From contig JADYZP010000062.1 in NCBI GenBank assembly GCA_020853025.1, positions 50,477 to 114,476 of the forward strand: DNA of 64,000 nucleotides. The letters run 5' to 3'. This stretch comes from Burkholderiales bacterium. Its GTDB lineage: Bacteria; Pseudomonadota; Gammaproteobacteria; Burkholderiales; Casimicrobiaceae. Under the pieces are notes generated by a model. The model was not told the origin of the DNA and searched no databases. It saw only the letters and a program-made list of their open reading frames with translations. The position numbers and the translations under genes were made by a program. Shown one piece after another: positions 8,948 through 38,978 of the stretch; position 1 is the stretch's first letter; each line of letters opens with the position of its first letter.

Positions 8948-9128
8948 GTGGATTCACTGTGGGTGGCATTTGCCATGCTGCTGATCATCGAGGGCATCCT
9001 TCCGCTCGTCGCCCCCGGCTTCTGGCGCGACACCTTTCGCAGAATCATCGAGCTGTCGGATGGACAGCTGCGCTTCGTCGGCCTCGTCTCTGTCGCCACG
9101 GGCGTGATCTGCCTGCTGCTGCTGCAAC

Positions 9129-9136
<8 letters not shown>
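8948..9136 (+). CDS. DUF2065 small membrane protein
   Basis: 62 aa, two hydrophobic segments (LLIIEGILPLVAPGFWRDTFRRI); conserved position between hflC and hisZ. Confidence 0.85.
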
Positions 9137-11578
<2,442 letters not shown>

Positions 11579-31616: not shown

Positions 31617-31630
31617 TGGCGGAGAGCGAG
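31617..31630. repeat. attL-like direct repeat (tRNA-Ser 3'-end remnant)
   Basis: tggcggagagcgag identical to 38889-38902. Confidence 0.85.
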
Positions 31631-31801
31631 TCCGCGTTCTGACGACATTACAACGCATTCCATCTCGTTTCAAACGCGCTCATTTTCATAGGGGAAACCG
31701 ATCATTTCGTGGCATCAAAATCCTTTCAAACATTTTCTTGTCATTTCGTTTCACTGCACATATTATGAGGGTTGATATGTGGGGCGGGAGAAAACGGAAT
31801 G

Positions 31802-33070
31802 AGACCAAAACGCAAGCAACATCCGCACAATGCACTGACGCCAATGGGGGTGCGCAACCAGCGCGAGCCCGGCCGCTACGCCGACGGTAACGGGTTGTAC
31901 CTGGTCGTCGATCCGAGCGGTGCGAAGCGTTGGTTGCTGCGCACCGTCATCATGGGCAAGCGTACCGACATGGGGCTAGGCAGCGTGCGCCTGGTGCCGT
32001 TGGCCGATGCGCGCAAAAAGGCGATCGACTACCGCGGCGCCGCGCGCGACGGCGGCGATCCGATGGAAGCGCGGCGCACCGCAAGGCGCATAGTGCCCAC
32101 GTTCGAGCAGGCCGCCGACGCCGTACACACAAGCCACAAAGCCGCGTGGCGCAACGCCAAGCATCGCGACCAGTGGATCAACACGCTGCGCCTGTACGTC
32201 TGCCCAGAACTTGGCAAAGTGCGCGTGGATCGCATTGGCACCGCCGATGTGCTGCGCGTGCTGTCGCCGATATGGCTCGCCAAGCCCGAGACGGCGCGGC
32301 GCGTGCGCCAGCGGATGCGCACGGTGCTGGATTGGGCCAAGGCGGCCGGCCATCGTACCGGCGACAATCCGGTCGATAGCGTCGAGCAGGGACTGCCGAA
32401 GCACGCCGATCGCGCCGAGCATCACGCCGCCCTGCCCTACGCCAGCGTCCCGATCTTTGCGATGCACCTGCAGGCGTCCGACGCCGGCGCGAGCGTCAAA
32501 CTTGCCTTCGAGTTCGCGCTGCTGACGGCGGCGCGTACCGGCGAAGTGCTTGGTGCCCAATGGGACGAAATCGGCACCGACGCGATGGTGTGGACCATTC
32601 CCGCGTCGCGCATGAAGGCCAAGCGCGAGCACCGTGTACCGCTATCCCAGCGCGCCCTAGCGATCCTCGAAGTGGCGCGCGCCCTGGGTGGCAAGCCGTA
32701 TGTATTCCCCGGCCGCAAGGCCGATGTGACGCTATCGAACATGGCGTTTCTCATGACGCTGCGCCGTCTGGAAACGGGCGCCACGCACAAGGATGGCGAA
32801 CCGGAGACGTACGCCGAGCGGACCACGGCGCACGGCATGCGCAGCGCGTTCCGCGATTGGGCTGCCGAGCGTACCAATTTCCCGCGCGAAGTCTGCGAGA
32901 CGGCGCTTGCCCACGCGAACCGGGACAAGGTGGAGGCCGCCTACCGGCGCTCCGACCTGTTCGAGCAGCGGCGCGCGCTCATGGGGCAATGGGCCGAGTT
33001 CGTGGGCACGCCATCCGAATCCGCGACCGTCCACACGATGCAGCGCAACGGCACCGCGGGGCGCGTATGA
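31802..33070 (+). CDS. Tyrosine recombinase/integrase (P4-type, DUF4102 N-terminal domain)
   Basis: GRYADGNGLYLVVDPSGAKRWLLR N-domain; catalytic region LLTAARTGEVLGAQWDEI ... TAHGMRSAFRDWAAERTNFPREVCETALAHANRDKVEAAYRRSDLFEQR. Upstream start at 31772 also possible. Confidence 0.95.
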   Translation, partial: RPKRKQHPHNALTPMGVRNQREPGRYADGNGLYLVVDPSGAKRWLLRTVIMGKRTDMGLGSVRLVPLADARKKAIDYRGAARDGGDPMEARRTARRIVPTFEQAADAVHTSHKAAWRNAKHRDQWINTLRLYVCPELGKVRVDRIGTADVLRVLSPIWLAKPETARRVRQRMRTVLDWAKAAGHRTGDNPVDSVEQGLPKHADRAEHHAALPYASVPIFAMHLQASDAGASVKLAFEFALLTAARTGEVLGAQWDEIGTDAMVWTIPASRMKAKREHRVPLSQRALAILEVARALGGKPYVFPGRKADVTLSNMAFLMTLRRLETGATHKDGEPETYAERTTAHGMRSAFRDWAAERTNFPREVCETALAHANRDKVEAAYRRSDLFEQRRALMGQWAEFVGTPSESATVHTMQRNGTAGRV

Positions 33071-33758: not shown

Positions 33759-33962
33759 GTGGATCAAGTCGACATCGTCATTCGCCGCCCGCGCGCGCTG
33801 CGCGAGTATCTCGATTGCAGCACCGTTACGGCGTGGCGCCGAGAACGGAACAATCCGAATTGGCCCCGCCCGGTAGACATGGGCGGCGGGCGCATCGGCT
33901 ATAAGCTGTCTGAAATTCGCCGCTACGTCGAGTCGCTGAAGTTCGCACAGCGTGCGGCATGA
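33759..33962 (+). CDS. AlpA-like/excisionase-type DNA-binding protein
   Basis: 67 aa; LREYLDCSTVTAWRRERNNPNWPRPVDMGGGRIGYKLSEIRRYVESL is typical of AlpA-type winged HTH. Confidence 0.82.
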   Translation: MDQVDIVIRRPRALREYLDCSTVTAWRRERNNPNWPRPVDMGGGRIGYKLSEIRRYVESLKFAQRAA

Positions 33963-34222
33963 GCGTCCAGAAACGACGAGAGCCGCTGGCGGGCGGCTCG
34001 ACGGCGCAAAACGGAACGGTACAACGCAATACTACCGCATCTTCGCTACGCTGGGCTGTGCTGGCGATTAAATCCAGCGGCGCACGGATCGTGTTCAACA
34101 CGTACGCCGACGAAATAGAAGCGTACCGCGTCGCCCACCAGTTGCTCCGCGTGAACTGCTACGCCCGCGTTGAACTGGCGCGGCGCGGCGACATGCCGGG
34201 ACGGCAGCGGGGGTCGCGATGA
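33959..34222 (+). CDS. Hypothetical protein of the element
   Basis: ATGA overlaps with both neighbours; no recognised domain. Confidence 0.55.
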   Translation: MSVQKRREPLAGGSTAQNGTVQRNTTASSLRWAVLAIKSSGARIVFNTYADEIEAYRVAHQLLRVNCYARVELARRGDMPGRQRGSR

Positions 34223-34716
34223 CCGCGGCAACGCTCGTTGACCGCTTGGACGGAGTCCGCCGTACCGGGCGTGACACCTGGCTCGCTAAGTGTCCGGCAC
34301 ACGATGATCGCCGGCCATCACTGTCCGTTCGCGAACTTGATGATGGGCGAACGCTGGTGCATTGCTTCGGCGGATGCACTGTAGACGCTGTTGTCGGCGC
34401 CGTGGGCTTGGAACTCGACGCGTTGTTTCCACCACGCGCCGCGACCATTTCGAGCCTTCCGGGAACGCGGCGACCCTTTCCCGCTGCGGACATCCTTCGC
34501 ACGATGACGCATGAAGCGATCATCGTCCTCATCGTGGCGGTCAGGATCGATCGGGCCGAAGCGCTTGAGCCGGGCGAACGAGAGCGCCTCGCGTTAGCCG
34601 TGCGCCGGATTCAGTCCGCGGCTGATATTGCGTTGCCAGAGCGCGACCGGCGTAGGGAGTTTCGCCAGGCGGCGGCGATTGCGGAGCGTGACCTCGCGGA
34701 CTGGAATGCAGCATGA
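34219..34716 (+). CDS. CHC2 zinc-finger primase-like protein
   Basis: WLAKCPAHDDRRPSLSVRELDDGRTLVHCFGGCTVDAVVGAVGLELDALFP matches the CPxHxD...CxxxC primase zinc-finger pattern. Confidence 0.85.
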   Translation: MTAATLVDRLDGVRRTGRDTWLAKCPAHDDRRPSLSVRELDDGRTLVHCFGGCTVDAVVGAVGLELDALFPPRAATISSLPGTRRPFPAADILRTMTHEAIIVLIVAVRIDRAEALEPGERERLALAVRRIQSAADIALPERDRRREFRQAAAIAERDLADWNAA

Positions 34717-35795
34717 GCGATGGAGTCGCCTACCTGGACGAGTATTTCTCGCGGCAATTTCAGGATCATACCGCGCGGTACGGTCCGCCAGAGGCCGATA
34801 CAGTCGATAGCGCACTCGAGTACGAATTCGCGGATGCCTTGGGCGACGACGGCGATGAGGCCGACGAGCTGATCGAAGGCGTCGTTACGCGCGGCGCAAT
34901 GGGTTGTCTGTACGGCGACAGCAACAGCGGCAAGACCTTCCTCGCGATCGACACCGCATGCGCCATCGCGCGCGGCATCCCCTGGATGGGTCGCAACGTC
35001 GAGCCCGGCATGGTCGTTTATCTGGCCGCCGAGTCGCCGGCTTCGGTTCGGCGCCGCTTGCGCGCCTACCATCGGCACCACGGCTGCAGAGTGCCTAACT
35101 TCGCCATCGTTAAGTCCCCGATCGACCTCTACAACGGTGCGGCAGATACGAAACGAATCATTGACCTGGTGGCCAAGCTTGAACAGGACACCGGCCAGAA
35201 ATGCGCGTTGGTCATCGGTGACACCCTGTCGCGCTTGTGTGCTGGCGCCAATGAAAACAGCGGCGAGGACATGTCCATCGTCGTGCGTCACGTCGACCGG
35301 ATCCGCGAGGCGTGCGGCGCGCACTTCCTGCTTATCCACCACACCGGCAAGGATGCCGCCCGCGGCATGCGCGGCTGGTCGGGAATGCGGGCCGCGATCG
35401 ACACCGAGATCTCGGTGTCGATCGACGACGCCACTGGCGCCCACGCGGCCGAGATCACCAAACAAAGGGACATCCCCGGCAAGGGCGATCGCATCGGCTT
35501 TCGCCTTCATGTTGTCGAGATGGGCGTCGGCAAGTGGGGCAAGCCGATCACGTCGTGCGTCGTGACCAACGCTGACGCCCCGCCGAAGCCGGCCAAGGGC
35601 AAGCGAGAGTCCGAGATAGCAGGCGCGATCACCGAGCTTTTGACCAGTCGCGGCGCCGGAATGAAACGGGGCGCGATCGCCGATCACTTCGATGGACGGT
35701 ATAGGGATACGTCCGTGTTCCGGGAAATCCGCAAGCTTCTGGAAACCGGACGTCTGCGCGAAGCCGTCGGCATCGTTGCCGTGGTGCAGCCTTGA
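34713..35795 (+). CDS. AAA-family ATPase, RepA/DnaB-like replicative helicase
   Basis: Walker A YGDSNSGKTFLAID; VVYLAAESPASVRRRL; Walker B-like CALVIGDTLSRL; LLIHHTGKDAARGMRGWSGMRAAIDTEISV. Confidence 0.9.
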   Translation: MSDGVAYLDEYFSRQFQDHTARYGPPEADTVDSALEYEFADALGDDGDEADELIEGVVTRGAMGCLYGDSNSGKTFLAIDTACAIARGIPWMGRNVEPGMVVYLAAESPASVRRRLRAYHRHHGCRVPNFAIVKSPIDLYNGAADTKRIIDLVAKLEQDTGQKCALVIGDTLSRLCAGANENSGEDMSIVVRHVDRIREACGAHFLLIHHTGKDAARGMRGWSGMRAAIDTEISVSIDDATGAHAAEITKQRDIPGKGDRIGFRLHVVEMGVGKWGKPITSCVVTNADAPPKPAKGKRESEIAGAITELLTSRGAGMKRGAIADHFDGRYRDTSVFREIRKLLETGRLREAVGIVAVVQP

Positions 35796-35797
35796 GA

Positions 35798-35916
35798 CTG
35801 TCCGTCTACTGTCCTCTGTCCTCTCATATAGAGAGAGGACAGGACAGGACAGTAAACATCCGGACGCTGTCTTGCTGTCCGAATGTGCTCTTGGACAGCG
35901 TTGGACAGTTGGACAG
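35798..35916. repeat. Dense CTGTCC/GGACAG hexamer array with an imperfect inverted repeat
   Basis: 10 copies of CTGTCC or GGACAG in 119 bp: 35798, 35809, 35816, 35837, 35842, 35847, 35875, 35893, 35903, 35911. Confidence 0.9.
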
Positions 35917-36108: not shown

Positions 36109-36933
36109 ATGAACGCGAACGTAAGTGCAGTCAACAGCACCAGCGTATTGACCGTGCCGAATCCCGGCGCCCGCGGCGGCGATTTCTACTTCGCCAAGCC
36201 GCAAGGCCACAATGCCGACATTCTCGGCGCCATTCACGCGATCCAAGAGGCGGCGACCAGCTTCTACCGCAACTGGTCCGACGTGCAAGCGGATCACGCG
36301 CCCGGCACGCATGCGCGCCAGGACAAGACCAACGCGTCATGCCGGGCGGCGCTAAAGGCGCTTGGCGCCCAGGTGCCACGGCTGGAGCGCGTGCGGTCGG
36401 AAATCGTTGAACGCAAGGCCGGCGTGTCGGTCGCGGCGGAGTACACAACTTCCCGGCCTTGGGAATGGGTTTTCGACTTGGCCACGGCTGCCCAGGTGCT
36501 CGCTATGGACGCCGGGCGGCGCAGGATGACGGTGCGCACGCTGGCCGATGATCCCGGCCCGAACTGGTTGCTTGGCGAAGCGATGGTACGCGTGCCAGTA
36601 CACCTGACTGGCATCACGCTCGCCGAGCAGGACGAAATCGAAACGCGCATGTTCCAACGTCTGCGCCCTGACAAGTACAAGGCGCTGGTCGACGACATTG
36701 CAGACCTGAACGCAGCCAACGGGATGTTGCGCAAGCTCGCGCTGGCGATCGGCGGGCTATGCCTGGACACCGCCATCTTCGTCACGGAAAACGCAACGCT
36801 GCATCGTCACATCCTCACCGAGACACCGATTAGCTGGCGCTCCGGGCGGATTCTGGCCGACGAGGACGCGACCAACGTCAGCGAGCCGGCAGTGCAGGCT
36901 GGAAACGCGCTGGAAGTCTCGGATGCCGCGTAG
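36109..36933 (+). CDS. Hypothetical protein of the element
   Basis: 274 aa continuous ORF with upstream purine-rich RBS (gaagggcag); no recognised family. Confidence 0.75.
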   Translation: MNANVSAVNSTSVLTVPNPGARGGDFYFAKPQGHNADILGAIHAIQEAATSFYRNWSDVQADHAPGTHARQDKTNASCRAALKALGAQVPRLERVRSEIVERKAGVSVAAEYTTSRPWEWVFDLATAAQVLAMDAGRRRMTVRTLADDPGPNWLLGEAMVRVPVHLTGITLAEQDEIETRMFQRLRPDKYKALVDDIADLNAANGMLRKLALAIGGLCLDTAIFVTENATLHRHILTETPISWRSGRILADEDATNVSEPAVQAGNALEVSDAA

Positions 36934-37047: not shown

Positions 37048-37494
37048 TTGACCAAGCTTACTGGAAATCCTACTGGCCGCCCGCCGAAGGCGCCACCGCC
37101 TGATGCGGCACAGCGTATCGAATTGCTCGCTTCCGATGGCTTTTCCGTGCGCGGTATCGCTAAAGCGATGGGCGCCGCCTTCGAGACGCTGCAGCGTTGG
37201 TTTGACGATTATCCGGAGTTGCGGGAAGCCTTCGAGAATGGCCGCGAACAGGAGCGTTACACGCTGCACAACGGCCTGTATGTCGCCGCAACCGAAAAGG
37301 GAAATATGGTTGCGGCGATGTTCCTGCTCAAAGCACGCCACGGCTACCGCGAAGGCGACCAAGGCGAAACCGCGAACCGAGTTTCCATCAATTTCACGCT
37401 GCCGGGCGCGTTGAAGCCGGAGCAATTCACGATCGAACATGAGCCGACCGATCAACCTAAGCGCATTTCAGCAGCGCGCCCTACTCGTTCCTGA
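37048..37494 (+). CDS. Phage terminase small subunit-like protein
   Basis: NPTGRPPKAPPPDAAQRIELLASDGFSVRGIAKAMGAAFETLQRWFDDYPELREAFENGREQERYTL HTH; immediately upstream of and overlapping terL. Confidence 0.8.
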   Translation: MTKLTGNPTGRPPKAPPPDAAQRIELLASDGFSVRGIAKAMGAAFETLQRWFDDYPELREAFENGREQERYTLHNGLYVAATEKGNMVAAMFLLKARHGYREGDQGETANRVSINFTLPGALKPEQFTIEHEPTDQPKRISAARPTRS

Positions 37495-38803
37495 AGAATA
37501 CGACCTGTTCCTGGGCGGCGGGCGCGGCGGCGGGAAGTCGTACACGTTGGGCGTGCTCGCGCTACGTCACGCGGAGCAGTACCGCGAGCGTGCGCGTATT
37601 TTGTATCTGCGGCGGACCTACAAGGGCCTGGCCGACTTCGAACTATTGACGCGTGACCTTTTCGGCGACGTGTACGGGATGGCCGCGCGCTACAACGCGG
37701 CCGAGCATGTTTGGCGCCTGCCGAACGGAGCCTATCTCGAGCTGGGGCAATTGGAGACGGCCGCGGAGTACGGGAAGTTTCAAGGCCGCTCGTTCACGCT
37801 GATGCTGGCCGACGAAATCGGGCAACACCCGATGCCGGACCTGCTCGACATGATGCGCTCGAACCTGCGCGGCGGGCATGACGTGCCGGTGCGCGTGGTG
37901 TTCGCCGCCAATCCCGGCGGACCTGGCCACTACTGGATCGCCAAGCGCTACGTGTTCATGGCGGCGCCGTGGAGTCCATTCCATGAGCCGAAATCAAATC
38001 GGCAATGGTTGTATGCGCCGAGCACGTTCGTAGACAACCAGTTCATTGACCGCGACCAATACCGCGAGCAATTGGGCAGCGCGTGCCCAGATGATCCCGA
38101 ACTGTTGCGCGCATGGCTGACTGGTGACTGGACCGTGAACCGTGGCGCCTATTTCGCCGCCGTGCTGGAGGAGGCCCGCAACGCCATCGAGCCGTGGCCG
38201 GCGATCCCGGAGGGATGGGAGACGTGGCTCGCGCACGACTTCGGCAGCAGCGCGCCGAGCGTGACCTACATTTGCGCGCAAAGTCCCGGCGCTACCGTGG
38301 CCGATCGTTTCTATCCACGCGACAGCATCGTATTGGTGGATGAGCTGGCCGCGGTGCGCCGTGACAATCTGAACATGGGACTTGGTTGGACCGCGCCGAC
38401 GACCGCGGAGGCCATCCGGGAAATGTGCGCAACCTGGAAAGTGCGCCCGGAAGGTGTTGCGGACGATGCCTGCTTTGCGAAGTCCGGACACGGCGCCGGC
38501 AGCATCGCCGACGAGTTCGCGCGGGCAGGCGTGCGCTTTCGCCCCGCGCAGAAGTCGGAGCGCATTCCCGGCTGGCAGAAGATGCGGCGCTTGCTGGCCG
38601 ACGCCGGCAAGCCCGACAAGCCGGGCCTGTATGTGAGCCGCGGCTGCTCCTACTTCTGGGCGACGGTGCCGTATCTCGCGCGCGACCAGAAGCGCGTCGA
38701 GGACGTGGACAGTTCAGGCCCGGACCACGCGGCCGACGCGGTGCGCTACGGGTGCCTGCGCCGCGACCTGCGCCTGCAGCGCGTGGGGTTGGCCGGCATC
38801 TAG
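37439..38803 (+). CDS. Phage terminase large subunit
   Basis: Walker A FLGGGRGGGKSYTLG; Walker B FTLMLADEIGQ; nuclease-region WLAHDFGSSAPSVTYI and DHAADAVRYG. Confidence 0.92.
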   Translation: MSRPINLSAFQQRALLVPEEYDLFLGGGRGGGKSYTLGVLALRHAEQYRERARILYLRRTYKGLADFELLTRDLFGDVYGMAARYNAAEHVWRLPNGAYLELGQLETAAEYGKFQGRSFTLMLADEIGQHPMPDLLDMMRSNLRGGHDVPVRVVFAANPGGPGHYWIAKRYVFMAAPWSPFHEPKSNRQWLYAPSTFVDNQFIDRDQYREQLGSACPDDPELLRAWLTGDWTVNRGAYFAAVLEEARNAIEPWPAIPEGWETWLAHDFGSSAPSVTYICAQSPGATVADRFYPRDSIVLVDELAAVRRDNLNMGLGWTAPTTAEAIREMCATWKVRPEGVADDACFAKSGHGAGSIADEFARAGVRFRPAQKSERIPGWQKMRRLLADAGKPDKPGLYVSRGCSYFWATVPYLARDQKRVEDVDSSGPDHAADAVRYGCLRRDLRLQRVGLAGI

Positions 38804-38888: not shown

Positions 38889-38978
38889 TGGCGGAGAGCG
38901 AGGGATTCGAACCCCCGTCCGGGTTGCCCCGAAACCTGATTTCGAGTCAGGCGCCTTCGACCACTCGGCCAGCTCTCC
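38889..38978 (-). tRNA. tRNA-Ser(CGA)
   Basis: Reverse complement ggagagctggccgagtggtcgaaggcgcctgactcgaaatcaggtttcggggcaacccggacgggggttcgaatccctcgctctccgcca; loop CTCGAAA, anticodon CGA; CCA encoded. Confidence 0.96.

Follow-up and report, generated by a model that had tools for sequence, protein, structure and literature searches.

What purpose is served by a dense cluster of a six-base word placed immediately behind a helicase gene? In the window (the whole stretch of 64,000 nucleotides analyzed here), an array of CTGTCC/GGACAG copies begins 2 bp past the stop codon of a gene encoding a RepA-like helicase. Because such arrays keep a fixed place behind this gene and because, in a related clade, the array motif follows the predicted recognition helix of RepA, we consider it very likely that the array serves a small integrated satellite-like element as its replication origin, with iterons bound by RepA itself, a reading for which there are as yet no replication or binding data.

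All ten hexamers reported in the earlier note are present, exactly where it had placed them: CTGTCC starts at 35798, 35809, 35816, and 35875, and GGACAG at 35837, 35842, 35847, 35893, 35903, and 35911. A degenerate eleventh copy (CTGTCT, 35867–35872) turns the second half of the array into a second inverted cluster, in which two forward copies are followed by three reverse ones. The array is organized as follows.

35798–35916 (no strand assigned): iteron array, putative replication origin, with 10 exact and 1 degenerate GGACAG copies
35798–35852 (no strand assigned): first inverted module, CTGTCC x3, centre, GGACAG x3; the same module type occurs in homologues
35823–35833 (no strand assigned): AT-rich palindromic centre CTCATATAGAG; CTWTAG-type centres also occur in homologues
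35867–35916 (no strand assigned): second inverted module, CTGTCT, CTGTCC, then GGACAG x3 at 8–10 bp spacing

The AT-rich centre (CATATAG) is situated inside the first GGACAG set, and no pronounced AT-rich block lies between the two sets. With copies of 6 bp each, in both orientations and spaced 5–11 bp within clusters, the array does not meet the criterion for a classical plasmid iteron origin, namely direct repeats of about 20 bp at full helical turns. The inverted arrangement around CTCATATAGAG described in the earlier note is real, as the array region folds at −69.8 kcal/mol compared with −44.8 ± 4.1 kcal/mol for shuffled sequences (z −6.2). Since the hexamer shows no global enrichment (29 found in the whole window, 29.25 expected), the interest of the array lies in its clustering: 0.054 copies are expected per 119 bp and ten are seen (Poisson P ∼6e-20), while runner-up 6-mers reach at most 6 copies in any 119-bp stretch, making the array the densest 6-mer cluster of the window. 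A whole-genome search with GGACAGTTGGACAG yielded a single further exact site, which was dropped as a candidate second array because it sits inside an unrelated coding gene; hence this search found no second CTGTCC/GGACAG array in the genome.

The array belongs to an integrated element of 7.3 kb that is bounded by a 14-bp tRNA-Ser repeat, TGGCGGAGAGCGAG, and is ordered integrase, AlpA-like gene, small ORF, CHC2 primase zinc finger, RepA, array, unknown ORF, terS, terL.

31617–31630 (no strand assigned): left attachment repeat TGGCGGAGAGCGAG, an exact 14-bp match to the tRNA-Ser 3′ end at 38889–38902
31772–33070 (+): tyrosine integrase (PF00589, PF22022, PF13356; phrog_1)
33759–33962 (+): AlpA/excisionase-like regulator, weak (PF05930, E = 0.09; phrog_66, E = 0.006)
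33959–34222 (+): small ORF, unknown; ORF only, with no Pfam or PHROGs family match
34219–34716 (+): primase zinc-finger (CHC2-type) protein (PF01807, 2e-5; phrog_6088, 6e-13)
34713–35795 (+): RepA-like helicase (AAA_25) with C-terminal winged helix (PF13481, 7.6e-37)
36109–36933 (+): ORF of unknown function, without confident family match in Pfam, PHROGs, or NCBIfam
37048–37494 (+): terminase small subunit (phrog_309, 1e-12)
37439–38803 (+): terminase large subunit (PF03237, 1.5e-10; phrog_2, 1.6e-27)
38889–38978 (−): tRNA-Ser(CGA), integration target, with the right attachment repeat at 38889–38902

This element meets the gene-order criterion for a Gram-negative PICI, with int, AlpA (a weak match), pri/rep, ori, and terS following one another rightward, as well as the att-site criterion, through its 14-bp att repeat at tRNA-Ser. 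It does not meet the criterion for a capsid-forming PICI, for terS and terL are present and capsid genes were not found (no scanned ORF of the element matched a capsid family in Pfam, PHROGs, or NCBIfam); nor were interference genes recognizable in it. The criterion for an IncQ-type replicon is likewise unmet: the neighbors of repA are the CHC2 protein and the unknown ORF, and Pfam and PHROGs gave no RepC match in the element. Because terL is present, capsid genes are absent, and helper dependence is unknown, we describe the element as resembling a Gram-negative PICI rather than filing it as a proven one. Both terminase subunits in the absence of a capsid gene (37048–38803) constitute an unusual set for a satellite.

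RepA of the window comprises 360 residues (PF13481, AAA_25), and its only sequence relative in the PDB, RSF1010 RepA, is also its top fold match. Its AlphaFold model (mean pLDDT 90.6) places a winged helix after a RecA-type core, with helices at residues 297–313, 319–325, and 332–344 and strands at 348–351 and 354–357.

35601–35783 (+): RepA C-terminal winged-helix domain, residues 297–357 (AlphaFold model)
35706–35744 (+): RepA predicted recognition helix, residues 332–344 (AlphaFold model; analogy with the motif-tracking helix of the best-sampled clade)

To compare this arrangement across relatives, members of the RepA family were gathered from GTDB genomes, IMG/VR contigs, and annotated phages and plasmids by searching genomes and by scanning with an alignment; scanning viral contigs with a single protein brought up no relatives, and the alignment was too divergent for use on genome contigs. 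A motif finder placed a short-motif array 3′ of the homologous gene at 170 of 211 loci, each outscoring all 159 control windows, and a simpler count on an earlier subset gave arrays in 64/90 downstream regions versus 69/3362 control windows. The conservation in related elements that the earlier note had proposed to check is thus borne out for position, with motifs that differ. What is kept is the array's place behind the gene and not its sequence: motifs vary by lineage (GGTAC, CGTTAC, GTGACA, TAGGAA, CGGTGAC, ACCGGAC, CGTTACA, GGGTACA, GCGGTAA, and others), and the nearest relative in a GTDB genome (L293/L312, 55% identity) carries an AGGTAC array. Complete phages share the arrangement, with Rhizobium phage 16-3, Alteromonas PB15, Idiomarinaceae 1N2-2, and Roseobacter CRP-821 as named carriers, as do capsid-bearing islands of Klebsiella and E. 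coli.

Several of these loci deserve description in their own right. Locus L112, at the roxA end of an E. coli O145 plasmid record, is a capsid-bearing satellite-like island with an array behind RepA; its motif and that of the capsid-bearing island L106 (Klebsiella plasmid) are AAAGTGAG and TGCGGCA, respectively. The window's own genome contains a second integrase-AlpA-CHC2-RepA element (contig C28, L313, RepA at 8992–10335), in which a GCGGTAA array just after RepA is followed by a RuvC-like resolvase gene, such that two replicons with different words, GGACAG and GCGGTAA, coexist in one genome. In L298, L299, L301, and L312, the next gene after the array often encodes a small MIDGL(I/V)GGKL-or-similar protein that is apparently single-strand-binding-like.

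RepA proteins almost without a C-terminal extension serve as a negative control, since they lack arrays: in the IncQ2 plasmid pLAtc1, for example, repA is followed by repC, a separate gene for the iteron binder RepC, and no array is present. Apart from such extension-free proteins, C-terminal length alone fails to separate array-bearing from array-free homologues. No array was detected directly 3′ of the gene in about a fifth of the homologues, many of which have a C-terminal extension, indicating that an array in this place is not obligatory. Array-free despite the extension are L069–L083 and L087 (IMG/VR), Caulobacter GB2A (L102), Mycobacterium Acadian (L105), and Microcystis Mae-JY30 (L110). 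In such extended homologues the origin may be located at another site or recognized in another way.

Array architecture is often retained while the word is replaced, in that copy positions, orientations, and the palindromic CTWTAG-type centre persist as the motif changes by lineage. Four loci (L060, L063, L092, and L103) have copy positions and orientations in common, at about 2+ 12+ 57− 66− 75− 87− 106+ 115+ 136− 144−, with four different motifs, and PB15 (GGTTCA) and 1N2-2 (GGTACA) show the same single-base difference throughout the array. Many arrays contain a palindromic module in which motif copies lie on either side of a GC arm and a CTWTAG-type centre, and such centres occur in 78 of 129 distinct arrays of homologues versus 10 of 1000 random 12-mers. 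Orientation-unbalanced arrays (8 forward and 0 reverse copies in L006, 14 and 3 in L005) nevertheless share one motif among their copies. The concerted change of all copies, including same-orientation copies that cannot pair, points to a protein reader.

A candidate for this reader emerged from the best-sampled clade, 70 sequences of a phage clade approximately 33–36% identical to the window protein. Here the helix pairs with the motif as SSAY with TACA, SGAY or RGAY with TACG, SSSY..N with TATA, RAGYKQ with TAGG, RAAFQK with TAGA, RAAFKQ with TATG, and RDAYLT with TCGGG. Helix distance correlated with motif distance (r 0.47, and 0.36 once ATPase divergence was removed); the corresponding value for the ATPase given the helix was −0.04. 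When the ATPases of a pair were at least 80% identical, an identical helix was found in 0 of 258 different-motif pairs versus 145 of 256 same-motif pairs. When disjoint close pairs with different motifs were considered, helix divergence exceeded ATPase divergence in 29/29 (means 0.47 vs 0.16, p = 2e-9), and in these same pairs the helix had also diverged beyond the remaining C-terminal domain (p = 1e-6); for disjoint same-motif pairs the helix was the more divergent in only 9/30 (means 0.083 vs 0.078). These p-values are approximate because the compared pairs share kinship. The cleanest pair, L046/L052, diverges by 3% in the ATPase, 2% in the primase, and 36% in the helix, with motifs GTAGGAAA and GCGGAGGA. 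A second clade agrees: between L196 (CGCAAC) and L197 (CGTAAC), most differences cluster near the predicted recognition helix. The clearest exception is L172, whose helix is as in L063 and whose motif is TGTATGAA and not TGTAGGAA.

These comparisons support the RepA C-terminal winged helix as the putative reader of the array motif, without binding data. Close relatives of the window RepA are too few to repeat the map there (DTSVFREIRKLLE-type helices versus GGACAG). That the window RepA itself reads GGACAG via its winged helix is consequently an inference, since no binding or replication data exist for this protein or its clade.

Could the array instead act as RNA in the replication-operon transcript, as a terminator, an attenuator, or a stable hairpin? 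Its strand does fold far better than shuffles, and an RNA stem would likewise stay paired if inverted copies changed in concert. However, the direct-only array of L006 and the unbalanced one of L005 cannot fully pair and yet each keeps one motif, and folding leaves the match of the motif to the RepA recognition helix unexplained. We found neither a terminator site nor a T-run in the array region, nothing in support of a promoter there, and nothing near gathering score in an Rfam search of the array, so that the structured RNA or terminator offered as an alternative in the earlier note gained no support from these searches, and we regard a regulatory or structured RNA as very unlikely. MicroRNA matches to the array were set aside, as they lie far below gathering scores and reflect only the hairpin.

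Recognition by the primase in place of RepA, with the array as a priming site, is an explanation to which we assign still less weight. The primase zinc-finger gene lies just upstream of RepA and the array, and in SCCmec the primase preferentially initiates inside the origin iterons (PMC7581432). Primase-domain divergence, however, says next to nothing about the motif beyond what ATPase divergence already accounts for (partial r 0.07), and the motifs of L046 and L052 differ with nearly identical primases and strongly diverged RepA helices. Of the earlier suggestion of a replication origin or primase recognition region, the origin is thus upheld by arrays at the same place in relatives, whereas primase recognition is not. 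RepA binding and priming roles are compatible, and nearby priming is not excluded.

A pac/cos-type packaging signal for the terminase small subunit, whose gene lies 1.1 kb further on, appears highly implausible: terS and terL do lie downstream in this element, but in homologues the array stays behind RepA whichever gene comes next (hypothetical or SSB-like genes in several relatives), including where terS is not adjacent, which speaks against this alternative from the earlier note. A functionless chance or low-complexity cluster, to which the lack of hexamer enrichment in the window would be congenial, can be dismissed with near certainty, given the Poisson probability, the absence of a comparable cluster from the window, and a position and architecture common to many lineages.

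We therefore return to an origin bound by RepA. Comparison of the homologues shows the array's fixed place, the concerted change of its copies, and, in a related clade, a match of helix to motif; on this comparative support, RepA would bind the GGACAG iterons with the winged helix at its C terminus (residues 297–357). Later steps are inferred from SaPI-type self-loading helicases and RSF1010 RepA: RepA hexamers probably assemble on both inverted modules, the AT-rich palindromic centre CTCATATAGAG is probably opened by RepA, the helicase would then probably load itself onto the single strands, and the CHC2-type primase probably joins RepA and supplies primers. More broadly, and with only moderate confidence, we propose that the winged-helix recognition helix of RecA-type RepA and its iteron array co-diversify in phages and satellites, giving each lineage a private origin word under a helix-to-motif code that can be learned; incompatibility between elements residing in one host may be what drives this.

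Our literature searches turned up no account of either phage arrays behind AAA_25 RepA genes or the helix-motif match, a provisional result as subscription journals were mostly not covered. The rep-ori layout is already known from SaPIs and PICIs; the present case is set apart by the RecA-type motor, the occurrence in complete phages, and the helix-to-motif code. A simple rule follows for locating origins in phages and satellites with RepA-type helicases, namely to look just 3′ of repA, and the iteron becomes predictable from the RepA protein. With the helix-motif pairs, exchanging a few residues would put origin specificity and incompatibility in mobile elements to a direct test, and the pairs could serve as a source of mutually orthogonal plasmid replicons.

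Among known systems, RSF1010/IncQ provides the nearest solved relative of RepA in both sequence and fold, together with an iteron-based origin. RSF1010 RepA depends on a separate iteron-binding protein, RepC, and to our knowledge lacks such a C-terminal winged helix, whereas in the window element helicase and predicted iteron reader are one protein. Satellite P4 offers the likeness of a single protein with helicase function, alpha, that recognizes short repeats, with crr near the alpha gene. Alpha belongs to an unrelated helicase family, however, and P4 requires two separated sites. Both alpha and its cognate site are named in PMC6092414. The SCCmec helicase Cch2 binds short direct 5-nt repeats directly downstream of its own gene (PMC7581432), similar to the short repeats behind repA, but it is a D5-family 3′-5′ helicase with three repeats, in a staphylococcal cassette and not a phage satellite.

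The SaPI/PICI rep-ori system, known from Gram-positive PICIs as well as from EcCICFT073, is comparable in several respects. PICI origins lie directly 3′ of rep, and the rep-ori of EcCICFT073 (E. coli) was shown to replicate autonomously (PMC6092414); here too the origin would immediately follow the initiator gene, in the window and in the 170 array-bearing homologues. The gene order int, AlpA, pri-rep, ori, terS is a further likeness. Multiple short iterons accompany an AT-rich region in both, but PICI iterons form two sets on either side of an AT-rich stretch, and the AT-rich centre of the window array sits within its first set. SaPI Rep iterons are recognized by the helicase's own C-terminal domain (summarized in PMC7581432), for which the counterpart here is covariation in a related clade and a predicted winged helix, without binding data. 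Unlike SaPI-type Reps, which belong to the DUF927-type and Primase_Cterm/D5-type helicase families (PMC6092414, PMC7581432), the motor here is unrelated, a RecA-type helicase (AAA_25) from the family of RSF1010 RepA. The window element differs additionally in carrying terL without recognizable capsid or interference genes, and the RepA-array family differs in extending to complete phages and in its evident helix-to-motif code.
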